In this document: positions 2,691 through 15,189 of the stretch, piece by piece
Numbering within the stretch: the stretch's first letter is position 1
How the letters are laid out: every line of letters begins with the position of its first letter
Source of the DNA: Acidobacteriaceae bacterium
GTDB taxonomy: Bacteria > Acidobacteriota > Terriglobia > Terriglobales > Acidobacteriaceae
DNA: 39,343 nt
Reading direction: 5' to 3'
Assembly: GCA_003152695.1 (NCBI GenBank)
Contig: PMAT01000053.1
Location: forward strand, 93,806-133,148
Program-made: the position numbers and the translations under genes
Notes under the pieces: model-generated
The model's input: the letters and a program-made list of their open reading frames with translations, nothing else
What the model was told of the DNA's origin: nothing
The model's database searches: none

Positions 2691-3089
2691 CTAAACCGCA
2701 AAGTGAATGCCCCAGAAGAATATCAATAGTGGCATTGCCAAGAATGAAACGAATCTCCCACGCCCCTTTCCGACAAGACAGAAAATTCCTGCAACTAAGC
2801 ACGCCATGGCGTTCACGTTCACCCAAATTCCTATTGCTGGAGTGAGCCCTAACTTATGCCCGGTAACATAGCGATAAATGAACTCGGCCGAGAGGTTAGC
2901 CAAGCTCAGCGACAGCGCCACCAATCCGATGAAAAAAAGCGTGCTTCGCCAATGAGATTGACGGTCCCTGTCTCGAGTTCGTCGAACCCACGCTGTGGCG
3001 ATCAATCCATAGAGTGCCAATAAAAGCAAAGTTCCTAACAGCTCCCGCCGTGGGTAGTGTCCTAAACTTGCGTTGATGAAAAACAGCAA
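2691..3089 (-). CDS. Small integral membrane protein, function unknown
   Basis: The frame encodes about 132 residues with four hydrophobic stretches: LLGTLLLLALYGLIATAW, TLFFIGLVALSLSLANL, IGIWVNVNAMACLVAGIF and VSFLAMPLLIFFWGIHF. Basic residues (RRTRDRDRQ) between the first two suggest a cytoplasmic loop. The start is uncertain: I use TTG 3089 because the frame upstream runs antisense through the start of the gene at 3129. The two genes would then be divergent and share about 40 bp. No family is recognised. Confidence 0.5.
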   Translation of the reverse strand: MLFFINASLGHYPRRELLGTLLLLALYGLIATAWVRRTRDRDRQSHWRSTLFFIGLVALSLSLANLSAEFIYRYVTGHKLGLTPAIGIWVNVNAMACLVAGIFCLVGKGRGRFVSFLAMPLLIFFWGIHFAV

Positions 3090-3093
3090 TCGG

Positions 3094-3122
3094 TTGCAAT
3101 TGCGTTTCCTCGCTGCTATTGT
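3094..3122 (+). promoter_or_regulatory. Candidate sigma-70 promoter placing transcription at the start codon
   Basis: TTGCAA (3094-3099) and TATTGT (3117-3122) are separated by 17 bp. The -10 ends six bases before ATG 3129 and no Shine-Dalgarno sequence is present. A leaderless transcript of the following gene is therefore plausible. Confidence 0.4.
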
Positions 3123-3128
3123 GGCGGC

Positions 3129-3419
3129 ATGACACGAAGCCGCAACGATCTCCGCGCACTGCGAAACATGATAGACGAAGCGCACCGCATCCTCGCCACG
3201 ACCTCTCTGCCAGAGGGCCGCTCTGAGCGAGCCTATGAGCTTCTGACAGCCGCCGTCCACCTGGCCGATGATCTTCTCTCGGTGTCCCCGGCTGTTGCGC
3301 TAGGGAAGAAGGGCGGCAGGGCGACGGCCAAGCGCGGGGCTGATTACTACAGCAAGATTTCCGCCATGAGGAAGGAGCACAAAGGTGGCAGACCACCAAA
3401 CAAACCCAAGCCTAATTGA
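3129..3419 (+). CDS. Small basic protein with a KGG-like/AT-hook-like tail
   Basis: The 96-residue product has a helical N-terminal half (residues about 5-60). Its C-terminus is rich in glycine and lysine, LGKKGGRATAKRGADYYSK, and ends GGRPPNKPKPN. The GGRATAKRG-DYYSK segment resembles tails of small proteins common in soil bacteria, and GGRPPNKPKP resembles an AT-hook, so DNA binding is possible but unproven. It has no clear ribosome binding site, and a promoter ends just upstream. It converges on the ClpP-like gene across a hairpin-bearing spacer. Confidence 0.6.
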   Translation: MTRSRNDLRALRNMIDEAHRILATTSLPEGRSERAYELLTAAVHLADDLLSVSPAVALGKKGGRATAKRGADYYSKISAMRKEHKGGRPPNKPKPN

Positions 3420-3507
3420 GACCCTGTGTCGGCTTGATTTTGATTCCGCCCCATCTTAAATGTTGGACAGAAGTGCCATTTCGAGTGAAAATAGTTGCAT
3501 AGCACTA

Positions 3508-3569
3508 GTGTGCAATGGAGGCTAAGTCTCAGTAAACAGAGCCTCCATTGTGGTAATTAACTTGCACAC
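3508..3569. terminator. Strong inverted repeats between convergent genes
   Basis: CAATGGAGGCT (3513-3523) and AGCCTCCATTG (3540-3550) form a perfect 11-bp stem with a 16-nt loop. A second perfect pair, GTGTGCAA (3508-3515) with TTGCACAC (3562-3569), overlaps the first arm and could compete with it. The site lies between a plus-strand gene ending at 3419 and a minus-strand gene ending at 3619. There is no T-run, so a terminator role is only a guess. Confidence 0.45.
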
Positions 3570-3618
3570 AGAGAACCGGAGGATTGTGCCCTTGCTCCCA
3601 AGTATGCAAGCCACTGCG

Positions 3619-4233
3619 TTACCGTTGGAATACGAGAGCCACTACGGGATTGCCCGGAGGAACGTTAACTTCGCGAATCTCGTCAACGATCCCATTAGCC
3701 AAAGCGAAGGCAGCATCTTTTGTCTGAGCCTCCAAGAACAGATTGGCGACATCATCCTCGCTAATCTTGGTCCGCTCGCCGATGACAGAGCCTATACGCT
3801 TTTGATCAGCGGTGATGTTATCGAGCCGCTCCCGTAGAAACTTCGCTTCCATCAGTTGGTTCGGTTGTGTCGGGCAACCGACTCCGTGAAACATGAAGGT
3901 GGAATGTGGACACGCATAACGCTTGCTACCAGCGAGGAATATGGCGTTGCCGATAGAATCCACGTTCCCGACATTGTGAGTAATTAGTTCTACTGGTAAG
4001 GCCCGGAGCACGTTGTAGAGAGTCATGCCGTGCATCACCGATCCGCCCGGCGTGGATAGCATCAAGTAAAGCTGCTTCACACCTTGGTTCGCAAAGTTGG
4101 AAGCTGTTGCGATTAATGTTTCGGTGGTGTTAGGTACGATTTCCGCCGAGAACGAAATGTAAACCGTCCCTGGCGGCTGCTGTTGTTGAATCAGTCCGGG
4201 TTGCAGCCGGACTGGAGTGAGAGGTGGTTGCAT
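3619..4233 (-). CDS. ClpP-like serine protease
   Basis: The 204-residue product has the ClpP/crotonase-like fold: YLMLSTPGGSVMHGM (residues 56-70), then the nucleophile region HNVGNVDSIGNAIFLAG with Ser93, and the histidine region CPHSTFMFHGVG with His116. It ends with ALANGIVDEI, as in ClpP (eA-eyGliD). The residue aligning with the third ClpP catalytic residue (Asp) looks like Ala169, so the triad may be incomplete or use another acid. The N-terminus is proline/glutamine-rich (PGLIQQQQPPG). I chose ATG 4233 because upstream in-frame sequence runs through a tRNA-like gene. No Clp ATPase lies nearby, and its substrate is unknown. It sits in an accessory patch with a transposase-like gene. Confidence 0.75.
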   Translation of the reverse strand: MQPPLTPVRLQPGLIQQQQPPGTVYISFSAEIVPNTTETLIATASNFANQGVKQLYLMLSTPGGSVMHGMTLYNVLRALPVELITHNVGNVDSIGNAIFLAGSKRYACPHSTFMFHGVGCPTQPNQLMEAKFLRERLDNITADQKRIGSVIGERTKISEDDVANLFLEAQTKDAAFALANGIVDEIREVNVPPGNPVVALVFQR

Positions 4234-4314
4234 TTTGGGATTACCCTTCTGCGTTTCGTAACGCGGATGTTGACATCGCGGCGCACCTTGCGCGATGATT
4301 TTGGGTTTCTTGAA

Positions 4315-4402
4315 CCGAAGGTGGAGGAATCGAACCCCAATCCGGGTGAGGGATTGTTTCGCGGGGTATAGGCCCGCTAGGAGCACCAGCTCCACACCTT
4401 CG
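4315..4402 (-). tRNA. Candidate allo-tRNA: 8/4 acceptor/T-stem, long variable arm, anticodon UAU
   Basis: Read 5' to 3' on the minus strand. An 8-bp acceptor stem pairs 4402-4395 (CGAAGGTG) with 4323-4316 (CACCTTCG). The 5-bp D-stem is GGAGC/GCTCC with loop TGGT. The perfect 5-bp anticodon stem is GCGGG/CCCGC with a seven-base loop CCTATAC. The variable arm is AATCC-CTCACCC-GGATT. The 4-bp T-stem GGGG/CCTC closes a canonical TTCGATT loop. The discriminator base is G at 4315, and CCA is not encoded. By position the anticodon is UAU, with C instead of U at position 33. The 8/4 branch with a long arm matches the noncanonical tRNAs reported from Acidobacteria by Mukai and colleagues. G73 plus a long arm would suit seryl-tRNA synthetase. 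Whether it is charged or expressed is unknown. Confidence 0.75.
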
Positions 4403-4987
4403 TCCAAGGAAAAGCCGGTTTTGTCGCAAGCCAAGACCGGGGGGACAACCGAACACTCACCATGGTCCACGTCAGAGGCTCCTCTAAGAATCTGCTGACG
4501 TGGGCCTTCGTGTTATCGCTCGCTGCACGGCAAGGTGGTGCAGTGGTGACAGCGAGCTATGCGTGTATCTTCATAAGCGACCTCGATCCCTGTGTACCAC
4601 TTTGGTACCAGGGAATTGGACACACGAATTTTCTTGACTTGGTCGAGGGGAATTTCGTAAGGTAGGAGCGTTCCACGGCTCCCACATCCGGCTCACCAAG
4701 GTTTTCAAAGTTTTCAGGCCCGAATCCTTTTGCGGAGGATCGGGCCTTAATACTTTCGTGCAGCATACTCCCGACATCTGTCGGGTGGCAAGTGTAATCT
4801 GTCACTCTCCGTTGCGGATTGCTAACGATTTCCACAAGATACGGTGTAAGACGATCTTAGTGATGTTGACTCAAGGGATTCCCGTCCCTGTGGACGGCTG
4901 TGGAAAAATCGGCACAATTTAGTCTGCGCTATCTTCGTATAAATTTTGCCCTTGACAAACAGCAACCGCTTCGTGTAAGCTGTACTC
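4403..4987. other. Hairpin-rich spacer between the tRNA-like gene and the transposase-like gene
   Basis: No convincing protein gene is seen. Four strong inverted repeats follow one another: CCACGTCAG/CTGACGTGG (4467-4475/4495-4503), GCTCGCTG/CAGCGAGC (4518-4525/4550-4557), TCCCTGTGTACC/GGTACCAGGGA (4587-4598/4604-4614, one bulge) and GGCCCGAATCCT/AGGATCGGGCC (4717-4728/4736-4746, one bulge). None is followed by a clear T-run. A structured noncoding RNA or decayed mobile-element ends are possible. Confidence 0.5.
4952..4981 (+). promoter_or_regulatory. Candidate promoter of the transposase-like gene
   Basis: A perfect TTGACA at 4952-4957 is followed after 18 bp by a weak -10, TAAGCT (4976-4981), seven bases from ATG 4988. 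The gene has no obvious Shine-Dalgarno sequence, so transcription may begin at or next to the start codon. Confidence 0.4.
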
Positions 4988-5926
4988 ATGAATTGCAAAG
5001 AGTGCAGCATCGAATGCCGGAAGTTTGGGAAGCATCGCAACGGGCTACAGCGCTTTCACTGCCTGCAATGTGGCCGGACGTACACCGAAGAACACGCACG
5101 GTTGTTCGGCGCAATGATCGTTCCCGAAGATAAGGCGCTACTGGCGATTCAACTCTTGATCGAAGGAACGAGCATTCGCAGTGCCGAGCGGATTACAGGA
5201 CTGCATCGCGATACGATCATCCGACTACTTGTCTTGGCTGGCGAACGTTGCATAAGACTGATGGACGCACGGATGCGGAATCTCCAGTGCGAGCGCGTGC
5301 AATCGGATGAAATCTGGACATTCGTCGGCAAGAAACAGCGCTGGGTTCGTGATGAAGATTCAAACGAAATCGGCGATGCTTGGGTGTTCGTAGCAATTGA
5401 CGCCGACACAAAGCTGATCCCGACCTATGCAGTCGGCAAGCGCAACCTCGCTACAACCCACGCCTTCATCGGTGATCTGAAACAGCGCCTCGCGAAGCGT
5501 GTCCAGTTGACAACTGACGGGTTCCGCTTTTACGTGACGGCTGTCGAAGAGCACTTTGGGGCCGAGATTGACTTCGGCCAGATAGTGAAGCTGTACGGCG
5601 ATTATGGACAGCATGACGCAGCCGGACGCTACTCACCGGGGCCGATAGTCGAGGTCATATCCAAAGTGCGGCAGGGCGATCCCGATCCCCGGCACATGAG
5701 CACATCTTTTGTGGAACGGCAAAACCTCACGATGCGCATGTCCATCCGCCGCATGACCCGGTTGACGAATGCGTTTTCAAAGAAGCTGGACAACCTGAAA
5801 GCGGCTTGTGCCCTGCACTTCGCGTATTACAATTTCTGCCGGATACATCAGACGTTGCGCGTGACACCAGCAATGGAAGCTGGCATCGCGGATCATGCGT
5901 GGAAGATCAGGGAACTGCTACAGTAA
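4988..5926 (+). CDS. IS1-family-like DDE transposase
   Basis: The 312-residue product starts with a zinc-finger-like segment (Cys3, Cys6, Cys10, Cys25, Cys28), as in the InsA part of IS1. A helix-turn-helix region follows (GTSIRSAERITGLHRDTIIRLL, residues 60-81 approximately). The DDE core shows Asp107 in QSDEIW, Asp177 in TTDGF and Glu243 in FVERQN. The tail NFCRIHQTLRVTPAMEAG is typical of this group. In IS1 itself the two parts are joined by frameshifting; here they form one frame. I find no terminal inverted repeats or target duplication. The stop overlaps the 3' end of the convergent next gene, so this may be a resident or immobilised copy. Confidence 0.8.
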   Translation: MNCKECSIECRKFGKHRNGLQRFHCLQCGRTYTEEHARLFGAMIVPEDKALLAIQLLIEGTSIRSAERITGLHRDTIIRLLVLAGERCIRLMDARMRNLQCERVQSDEIWTFVGKKQRWVRDEDSNEIGDAWVFVAIDADTKLIPTYAVGKRNLATTHAFIGDLKQRLAKRVQLTTDGFRFYVTAVEEHFGAEIDFGQIVKLYGDYGQHDAAGRYSPGPIVEVISKVRQGDPDPRHMSTSFVERQNLTMRMSIRRMTRLTNAFSKKLDNLKAACALHFAYYNFCRIHQTLRVTPAMEAGIADHAWKIRELLQ

Positions 5927-6256
5927 GTGCGGCGCTAGCGCTTTTAATCTCTCAGTTGCTTCATGCAGTTCAGCGGCTAAGCGCTGCTTCTCTTCCAATA
6001 CGTGTACTAGCTCGTGGTGGTTAAGCAATCCCTCAAATGAGTGCAATGCCTGACCGCGCAACTGTGGAGGCGGAACGTAGGTCACCTTTCCGCCTTCCGC
6101 TTTCAACGTCTGAAAGATCTGATTCTGCTGCACCAAGAACTGCATTTCCATAAATGCACGATTCAGCTTTTCTTGAACGTGGTTCAACTCGCCCTTTAGG
6201 TGGCTGTAATGTTCCGCCGCCCTTCCGACCTGCTCGTATTTCTCTTCTTCGCTCAT
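5918..6256 (-). CDS. Coiled-coil protein of unknown function
   Basis: From ATG 6256 the product has 112 residues. It is strongly helical, charged and heptad-like: MSEEEKYEQVGRAAEHY, then HLKGELNHVQEKLNRAFMEM, and near the end LEEKQRLAAELHEATERL. A short linker with VTYVPPPQLRG separates two coiled segments. The frame remains open upstream of 6256, but that part lacks helical character. The 3' end overlaps the transposase-like gene's stop by 9 bp. No known family is recognised. Confidence 0.55.
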   Translation of the reverse strand: MSEEEKYEQVGRAAEHYSHLKGELNHVQEKLNRAFMEMQFLVQQNQIFQTLKAEGGKVTYVPPPQLRGQALHSFEGLLNHHELVHVLEEKQRLAAELHEATERLKALAPHLL

Positions 6257-6330
6257 ATGCCAAATGGTACTACTTTGGCTGAGCGCTGGCGAATATCTGG
6301 ATTGATTCGTTCCGGGTTGGTAAACTTCCA

Positions 6331-6765
6331 TCAACGCACCTTTAGGACACTACCCCGCCGTGCTACCACGTGTTGCCATTCTGCCGTGTCCCGTATAAAA
6401 GCGACCCCCACCTCAGTAGTCACTTCAACCGGCACGCCATTTTCCACAAACGGCTTATATTTCCAGCCCCGAACTTCCTCAACCGCACGCTGAGCCAAGA
6501 TCGGATGGCCGCTTATTACCCGTGCGGATTCAACGTCTCCGGAAGGCGAAATAGCTACTTCAAGAATGACGGTGCCACTAAGTCCCAACTTTTGCGCATC
6601 TGGTGGGATTGAGGGAAAGGTGCGCCGCAGAAGATGGCTTTGCTCTTCCGCAGGAGACATGTGTATGGGTTGAGTGTGCTCCGACTGAGCAGATGCAATT
6701 GCGCAAAATCCGAGCATAACGATAATCGGCCTGCGAAGAAGCCTCAAGGCCCAATCAGCGCACAT
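6331..6765 (-). CDS. Secreted TonB C-terminal-domain protein
   Basis: From ATG 6765 the product is 144 residues. It starts with an N-terminal signal or anchor (LLRRPIIVMLGFCAIASAQ), and the rest is a TonB C-terminal domain: LGLSGTVILEVAISPSGDVESARVISG, then LAQRAVEEVRGWKYKPF and VPVEVTTEVGVAF. These are the beta-strand/helix signatures of the energy-transducer fold (PF03544). It lacks the long proline-rich periplasmic spacer of true TonB, so an envelope adaptor role is more likely than energy transduction to receptors. It lies 34 bp downstream of the E1-alpha-like gene on the same strand and may be cotranscribed. Confidence 0.75.
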   Translation of the reverse strand: MCADWALRLLRRPIIVMLGFCAIASAQSEHTQPIHMSPAEEQSHLLRRTFPSIPPDAQKLGLSGTVILEVAISPSGDVESARVISGHPILAQRAVEEVRGWKYKPFVENGVPVEVTTEVGVAFIRDTAEWQHVVARRGSVLKVR

Positions 6766-6799
6766 CCTGCCCAACCTTCGGAGTTGATTCCCGCATCGC

Positions 6800-15111: not shown

Positions 15112-15189
15112 GTCCCCGTCGTCTAGCCCGGCCTAGGACATCGCCCTTTCACGGCGGTAACACGGGTTCAAATCCCGTCGGGGACGCCA
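15112..15189 (+). tRNA. tRNA-Glu (anticodon TTC), CCA encoded
   Basis: A canonical cloverleaf: acceptor GTCCCCG/CGGGGAC, D-arm GTCTAGCCCGGCCTAGGAC, anticodon stem around CTTTCAC (anticodon TTC), T-arm CGGGTTCAAATCCCG, discriminator G, encoded CCA at 15187-15189. The 3' half from 15144 is supplied by the integrated element and is repeated exactly at 28990-29036. Integration therefore preserved the gene. Confidence 0.96.

Follow-up and report, generated by a model that had tools for sequence, protein, structure and literature searches.

The window, a stretch of 39,343 nucleotides from an Acidobacteriaceae bacterium, holds an 8/4 allo-tRNA gene with the anticodon UAU (4315–4402, minus strand) that is cargo of a complete IS1-type transposon. 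This location is new here, as is the finding that in related transposons the codon read by such a tRNA recurs at fixed positions of the transposase gene. Allo-tRNAs were reportedly described by Mukai and colleagues in 2017. The recurrence of the codon at fixed places in the transposases points to a decoder carried by the element itself, and on balance we favor the view that a Ser-type tRNA private to the transposon decodes AUA (or UUA) in the transposon's own transposase.

A first-pass annotation of the window had proposed an 8/4 allo-tRNA with anticodon UAU at this place, and the sequence together with the ARAGORN call at 4315–4402 bears this out. Read 5′ to 3′ from 4402 to 4315, the tRNA has an 8-bp acceptor stem (CGAAGGTG/CACCTTCG), a D-arm with a 5-bp stem and the 4-base loop TGGT, an anticodon arm with a 5-bp stem and the loop CCTATAC (C at position 33), a 5-bp variable arm, and a T-arm with a 4-bp stem (GGGG/CCTC, one G-U pair) and the loop TTCGATT. 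G73 is present and CCA is absent from the gene. Every structural element that the annotation had listed (the acceptor, T-stem and loop, D-loop, variable arm, anticodon loop with UAU and C33, and the SerRS-type G73 and long arm) is thus found in the sequence, and the layout of Acidobacteria allo-tRNAs was rightly recognized, the lineage being acidobacterial. Its coordinates were also correct; the strand had been left unstated, and the gene actually lies on the minus strand, with the anticodon at 4368–4370, where the plus strand reads ATA. The claim that standard finders miss such a gene is only partly true, because ARAGORN calls it at exactly these ends, as tRNA-Ile(tat); it does hold for Rfam RF00005, with which the allo-tRNA went unreported at the gathering score and, in a scan of its own genome, at E ≤ 10. 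Bacterial tRNA-Sec has an 8/5 branch and a UCA anticodon, and tRNA-Ile reading AUA has a short variable region and A73. The 8/4 branch and UAU exclude the former identity for the window RNA, and the long arm and G73 exclude the latter. When folded, the plus strand of 4315–4402 scores 3.57 sd lower than its shuffled versions, of which 1 in 200 is as low. Promoter-like TATAAT sequences and terminator-like hairpins in some relatives had raised the idea that the opposite strand encodes the real RNA. We rejected this idea because G-U pairs on the tRNA strand would turn into A-C mismatches (14 G-U cells on the tRNA strand by hand count in a 15-sequence alignment, with 4.5% of all cells unpaired), and because CCA is encoded on the tRNA strand in some members.

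The pairing on which the first-pass annotation depended is conserved in homologues. A covariance-model search, run with a two-sequence model in 298 genomes of the order, gave matches in 22, of which 16 have a TATA-containing anticodon loop. In alignments that were fitted to the structure, and so are biased in its favor, 95.5% of pair cells hold standard pairs across 15 sequences including the window, changes on both sides occur at 20 of 27 pairs, and the covariation score is 0.526 (shuffled mean 0.164, slid versions at most 0.177), which is strong covariation; the 8-bp acceptor stem and 4-bp T-stem are 100% paired in these sequences, and all 22 first-search matches give 93.8% standard pairs and a score of 0.575. 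The stems diverge among relatives while the anticodon loop stays. Of 54 tRNA rows, 43 were scored as having G73 (the script misparsed several others, and one locus appears twice), and automatic scoring gave an encoded CCA behind base 73 in 15 of the 54 tRNAs. Inspection by eye found mismatched or 8-base anticodon loops in L133, L134, L141, L146 and L154 (8-base loops in four members), and showed that some transposon-borne long-arm G73 tRNAs are of a 7/5 form, not 8/4. Among the 22 matches, L076 and L078–L082 were left out of the neighborhood work as having other anticodons or being weak, although L080, at 26.3 bits, has the loop CTTATGA. From a wider search we accepted nine matches (L083–L091), the threshold being about 60 bits. 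L106, a candidate allo-tRNA, proved to be a tRNA-Sec. Within the 25 loci taken, L151 has the anticodon UUA, and L154 resembles, by eye, a degenerate UAA.

IS1-family elements have terminal inverted repeats and produce a target repeat of 8–9 bp. The window element is 3302 bp long (3053–6354), as delimited by its inverted ends and target repeat: a left terminal inverted repeat at 3053–3081 on the plus strand (GGTAGTGTCCTAAA...TGCGTTGATG) and a right one at 6326–6354 on the minus strand, with 27 of 30 positions matching, flanked by an 8-bp target site duplication, CCGCCGTG, at 3045–3052 and 6355–6362 (both plus strand). Its transposase (4988–5926, plus strand; 312 amino acids, five AUA codons) matches Pfam PF03400 with E 7.5e-07 and 30 bits (cut-off 24.1), and so the IS1-family features, namely the DDE transposase PF03400, the inverted ends and the 8-bp repeat, are all present. 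A passenger gene for a ClpP-like protease (3619–4233, minus strand; PF00574) lies downstream of the tRNA on its strand, a small conserved ORF of 96 amino acids ending in GGRPPNKPKPN (3129–3419, plus strand) adjoins the left end, and a further passenger ORF is found at 5918–6334 (minus strand); Pfam gave no match for the latter two. In L137, L138 and L144, homologues of the 96-residue ORF lie on the strand opposite to the tRNA and begin 24–25 bp beyond it. A tie between the ClpP-like gene and the tRNA was considered and dropped, protein clustering having found a relative in only 1 other of the 25 loci, more than 5 kb away. A region with approximate ends at 2628 and 6790 is absent from four genomes of the same genus, which join window positions ~2551–2560 to ~6791–6796 with 40–128 bp between; one of the four matches to about 2627 in the wider search. 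This missing region exceeds the transposon because TonB_C and membrane ORFs beside the transposon also fall in it, these being likewise missing from the four relatives. The end sequence of the window transposon recurs in seven other loci, and in two of these, L142 and L144, inspection by eye places the tRNA between the two ends and gives GGAACTCT and GAAATCTG as target repeats.

Codon 89 of the window transposase, set in GERC-AUA-RLMD (5252–5254, plus strand), is AUA in all four tRNA-linked IS1 transposases and in none of 28 taken as unlinked, 13 of which have A there. This comparison set omits six near-duplicate rows and L301, and in 11 of its 28 loci (L276–L286) about 1.5 kb on each side was scanned, with ARAGORN alone. 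AUA reaches 21.3 per 1000 codons in the 4 linked transposases vs 5.5 in the 28 taken as unlinked. The codon in EV-AUA-SK (5657–5659) is AUA also in 9 of the 28 unlinked transposases, and UUA in L291. Ile/Val columns account for 50% of AUA sites vs 55% of AUC/AUU sites in the IS1 group (25 and 57 sites), and we therefore set this group aside as independent proof of recoding, its AUA sites being as Ile/Val-like as its AUC/AUU sites. As the IS1 AUA sites are Ile-like, and one also occurs in unlinked transposases, recoding in the window element, where the location of the tRNA and the enrichment of AUA are observed, is argued from its IS1595 relatives, whose codon patterns would then extend to it. 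L301, which lies in the window's own genome (C49) and belongs to neither group, is an incomplete copy of an IS1-type transposase gene in which seven codons, codon 89 among them, are AUA. No tRNA was found within ~5 kb of it, which counts against the private-decoder view, and the tRNA of the window might act for it in trans.

An IS1595-type transposase lies within ~6 kb in 12 of the 25 allo-tRNA loci and an IS1-type one in 3; L138 holds an IS1 remnant, and several other loci offer little flanking sequence (for example, L148 has 21 bp upstream and L150 has 650 bp). The transposase of L134 was assigned to the IS1595 family by PF12762 and PF12760. From a search for relatives the best 80 of 487 were used, which with five further loci gave 85 transposases; 79 of the 80 loci are acidobacterial by annotation (L198 is annotated Deltaproteobacteria), and seven of the first 12 IS1595 loci were judged identical to loci of the 80 and counted once. 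Linked tRNAs, sought with covariance model R2 and ARAGORN, divide this set into 36 UAU-linked, 5 UAA-linked and 29 with none found (here called unlinked), and the other 15, here called "short", offer at most 1.5 kb of downstream sequence, show no tRNA and were kept out of the comparison. In the same set (best 80 of 487 plus five), both inverted ends were found in 30 of the 41 linked loci, and the tRNA lies inside them in 30 of 30. At least 7 of 8 target-repeat positions agree in 27 of these 30 elements, in a search that allowed 30 placements and for which we estimate a chance of ~1% per element; L188, L227 and L243 fall short. Four elements (L199, L209, L243 and L256) measure 1620–1912 bp, leaving little room beyond the transposase and tRNA(s), and L217 is an intact element with a target repeat of 8 of 8 in which no tRNA was found. 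Cargo genes vary between elements and the tRNA is constant. In eight elements, the passenger genes contain 7.2 AUA and 7.7 UUA per 1000 codons vs 3.4 and 2.8 in flanking genes, where both codons are rare, and the transposases are poor in UUA (1.9 per 1000). A search of plasmids returned only transposases below 60% identity.

The codon that recurs in these transposases matches the anticodon of the tRNA that they travel with. All counts in this paragraph and the next refer to the best 80 of 487 relatives plus five, unless stated otherwise, and the fixed codons 4, 259 and 267 are numbered on L134/L177. Of the 36 UAU-linked transposases, 31 have AUA at codon 4, codon 267 or both, against 1 of 29 unlinked and 0 of 5 UAA-linked (Fisher 3.5e-12 for UAU-linked vs unlinked, with kinship ignored). 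UUA, which is found at either codon in 0 of 36 UAU-linked and 0 of 29 unlinked rows, stands at both in 5 of 5 UAA-linked rows, or in 5 of 6 had L251 not been moved by hand from the UAA-linked rows to those with none, which was done because its tRNA-Leu(UAA) has A73 and sits on the opposite strand. The 15 short loci have AUA at fixed positions in six cases and UUA in two (at both codons). Overall, AUA amounts to 12.9 per 1000 codons in linked vs 2.2 in unlinked transposases, with 2–7 AUA codons in each UAU-linked one and 0–2 in 28 of the 29 unlinked, L215 having five. L184 and L187 have a UAU tRNA and AUA at none of the three fixed positions.

In a transposase tree built with AUA and UUA masked, linked rows fall in several groups, and most unlinked rows form a neighboring group. 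The UUA rows make up one clade of seven, so the codon switch is one event. Four unlinked rows (L181, L217, L205 and L215) are nested among UAU-linked rows. Two of these, L181 and L217, have no tRNA that we could find and one AUA each, none at a fixed position, a pattern that fits joint loss of tRNA and codons. The other two do not fit joint loss unless their tRNA was missed: L205 has AUA at codons 4 and 267, and its 1.6 kb of downstream sequence yielded no tRNA; L215, a plain exception, has five AUA codons, one of which is fixed codon 259, and a search of 5.7 kb downstream likewise yielded none. We also examined a second sample of 47 loci from viral_contigs, gathered after the hypothesis was formed and searched with ARAGORN (47 of 47) and with model R2 (29 of 47). 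In seven of these loci, six of them distinct (L329 and L330 are alike), a UAU tRNA lies no more than 3.7 kb from the transposase, and AUA occupies at least one of the three fixed positions in 7 of 7. At least one fixed codon was readable by pattern in 24 of the 40 others, and AUA was present at a fixed codon in two of those 24: in L349, at codon 4 alone, and in L353, where 244 bp are available downstream. Among the 40, some are rich in AUA and UUA (for example, 7 and 14 in L345) and no tRNA for either codon was found in them; the fixed codons of such loci were mostly unreadable by pattern.

We next consider which residue AUA stands for, scoring residues on the columns of unlinked IS1595 relatives, again within the best 80 of 487 plus five. 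AUC and AUU in linked transposases score as Ile (+451.6 and +121.1), as does AUA in unlinked ones (+7.6); AUA in linked transposases gives −56.7 for Ile, with Val best at −15.1, and column by column it points to Lys, Arg, Ala, Ser and Thr. At the non-fixed AUA sites, 12% of the residues in unlinked transposases are Ile or Val, vs 56% at AUC sites. The column environment of the non-fixed AUA sites is nearest to Ala, then Thr, Ser and Lys, and the nearest relatives at these sites (n = 35) have T in 6, K and E in 4 each, M, L and A in 3 each, I, G, S and Q in 2 each, and four residues once. Concerning the fixed sites, 22 of 29 unlinked transposases have Ala in column 267, and in the predicted structure of one IS1595 transposase (mean pLDDT 84.9) residue 267 opens helix 267–282 after Ser266; column 259 is M, I or V in 26 of 29 unlinked relatives. 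Ile is thus disfavored at the IS1595 sites, and we gave up naming the residue from column profiles, which leave Ser, Ala, Thr and Lys unseparated. That AUA is probably not read as Ile in linked IS1595 transposases is supported by these profiles, and since the sites are not Ile sites, missense decoding there is likely. SerRS charges its tRNAs independently of the anticodon. The suggestion of the first-pass annotation, an AUA-to-Ser missense tRNA, is plausible and gains from the IS1595 relatives; for serine itself, we infer that AUA would be read as Ser from the fit of G73 and the long arm to SerRS, features generally held, and given in passages of PMC7609411 on these RNAs, to be SerRS identity features. 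On the host side, the window genome has a TilS-like match (PF01171), and three CAU tRNAs are found among 30 tRNA loci scanned (of 53 matches), one of them resembling tRNA-Ile2. With a TilS-like protein and an Ile2-like CAU tRNA, the host should read AUA as Ile, and the allo-tRNA would compete.

The computations give the fold, the location inside the transposon, the match of codon to anticodon, the two nested joint absences and the one codon switch; expression of the tRNA, its charging with serine and an effect on the transposase are inferences. Acidobacteriota IS1 and IS1595 transposons carry a long-arm G73 tRNA gene inside their inverted ends, with an anticodon able to read a codon seldom used by the host (AUA by UAU, UUA by UAA), and that codon stands at fixed positions of the transposase gene. 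The element's tRNA would be charged by the host SerRS and, at AUA codons, would compete with the host tRNA-Ile2 and insert serine, and full output or activity of the transposase may thereby depend on the element's own tRNA. That this amounts to a transposon family with a private code, in which a Ser-type tRNA re-reads AUA or UUA and the transposase is correct only with its own tRNA, we put forward tentatively, giving it somewhat less than an even chance.

A simpler account would be control by rare codons without recoding, the tRNA supplying decoding of AUA (or UUA) and the residue being standard or unimportant. Both codons are rare in these genomes, one of the fixed codons is the fourth of the gene, the AUA sites of the IS1 group suit Ile, and so does the M/I/V column 259; even so we judge this account unlikely, as the tRNAs have Ser-type G73 and long arms, not the features of tRNA-Ile or tRNA-Leu, and AUA avoids Ile columns in linked IS1595 transposases and favors them in unlinked ones. 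The tRNA might also be a regulatory or toxin–antitoxin-linked RNA that rides on transposons, with the AUA codons coincidental. Among ten chosen proteins, some loci indeed have a Gp49-like protein (below the Pfam cut-off) with an HTH partner nearby, or ImmA/IrrE-like, Panacea or Abi_2 passengers, and links to transposons or toxin–antitoxin systems are hypothesized in parts of PMC7609411. We dropped toxin–antitoxin cargo as the function because the cargo differs between elements; and with the tRNA staying where passengers change, elements holding hardly more than transposase and tRNA(s), and a codon that tracks the anticodon, a regulatory role is quite improbable. Very improbable indeed is a decaying tRNA relic, passively carried by transposons: the irregular anticodon loops described above, and the C33 and lack of an encoded CCA in the window tRNA, would suit decay, but 95.5% of pair cells hold, with both-side changes at 20 of 27 pairs, the anticodon loop is constant while stems diverge, and codons and tRNA are absent together in L181 and L217.

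Streptomyces bldA is a chromosomal tRNA-Leu for UUA with standard decoding, and some phages bring suppressor tRNAs by which a stop codon within the phage genes is reassigned. As with bldA, a tRNA for a rare codon of a GC-rich genome would set the output of the genes holding that codon, but the tRNA here is mobile and Ser-type. As with phage suppressor tRNAs, the tRNA of a mobile element would change the reading of the element's own genes, but here the codons are the sense codons AUA and UUA and the carriers are transposons of 1.6–4.4 kb. Known IS1595 and IS1 transposons with passengers share PF12762/PF12760 or PF03400, inverted ends and 8-bp target repeats with these elements, whose cargo differs in including a tRNA matched to transposase codons, sometimes as nearly the sole cargo. 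According to section 7 of the review PMC7609411, UAU ranks with the most predominant 8/4 allo-tRNA anticodons, and the window RNA is therefore one of a known kind, with the 8/4 branch, long arm, Ser-type features and soil bacteria of the Acidobacteria allo-tRNA-UAU described there. The same section reports that an allo-tRNA-UAU pseudogene in Edaphobacter strain C40 shares sequence with an overlapping ORF for a transposon-related protein, leaves the natural role of the group open, and describes allo-tRNA-UAU as unusable for translation in E. coli, which counts against decoding of the transposase by its own tRNA. Unlike the tRNAs described there, the genes here lie inside defined IS1 and IS1595 transposons, have their cognate codon fixed in the transposase, and include a UAA/UUA sister group. 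The first-pass annotation had missed the predominance of UAU, the transposon cargo and the concentration of cognate codons in transposases. We found no report, in mainly openly accessible literature, of a transposon with a tRNA matched to the codons of its own transposase. If the private decoding of AUA or UUA is true, the UAU group of allo-tRNAs has a job, namely serving its carrier transposon, natural reassignment of a sense codon exists at the scale of a single 2–4 kb element, and there are implications for the self-limitation of mobile elements and for code-based barriers to gene transfer. The claim is directly testable, since transposase, tRNA, codons and two pairs (AUA/UAU and UUA/UAA) are defined.

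Several other observations concern these loci. In the window, an ordinary tRNA-Glu gene is found at 15112–15189 (plus strand), and the region 4440–4540 shares with L074, L075 and L077 a variable hairpin upstream of the tRNA, on the strand opposite to it, with CACCAYGG before and a T-rich, terminator-like stretch after. ARAGORN gives the anticodon UUA, which would read the stop codon UAA, for tRNAs in L243 (7350–7435), L281 (2897–2986) and L151 (6713–6797), two of the three adjoining an IS1595 or IS1 transposase. In L179, L184, L199, L201 and L256, a further tRNA-like gene, ~75 bases long and short in its variable region, lies directly upstream of the UAU tRNA; ARAGORN gives these genes differing anticodons, namely ggc, tgga, cgc, tgc and cg. 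L078 and L079 are other allo-tRNAs, with anticodons GCC and GUC, and are followed within ~80 bp, behind promoter-like sequence, by palindromes resembling their own anticodon arm (GGTTTGGCAAACCG, GGCTTGACAAGCCG). In L134, L140 and L141 the tRNA and a HigB/Gp49-like gene, which has an HTH partner, point away from each other, and palindromes such as TCTCAAAAAAGAGA lie between the two.
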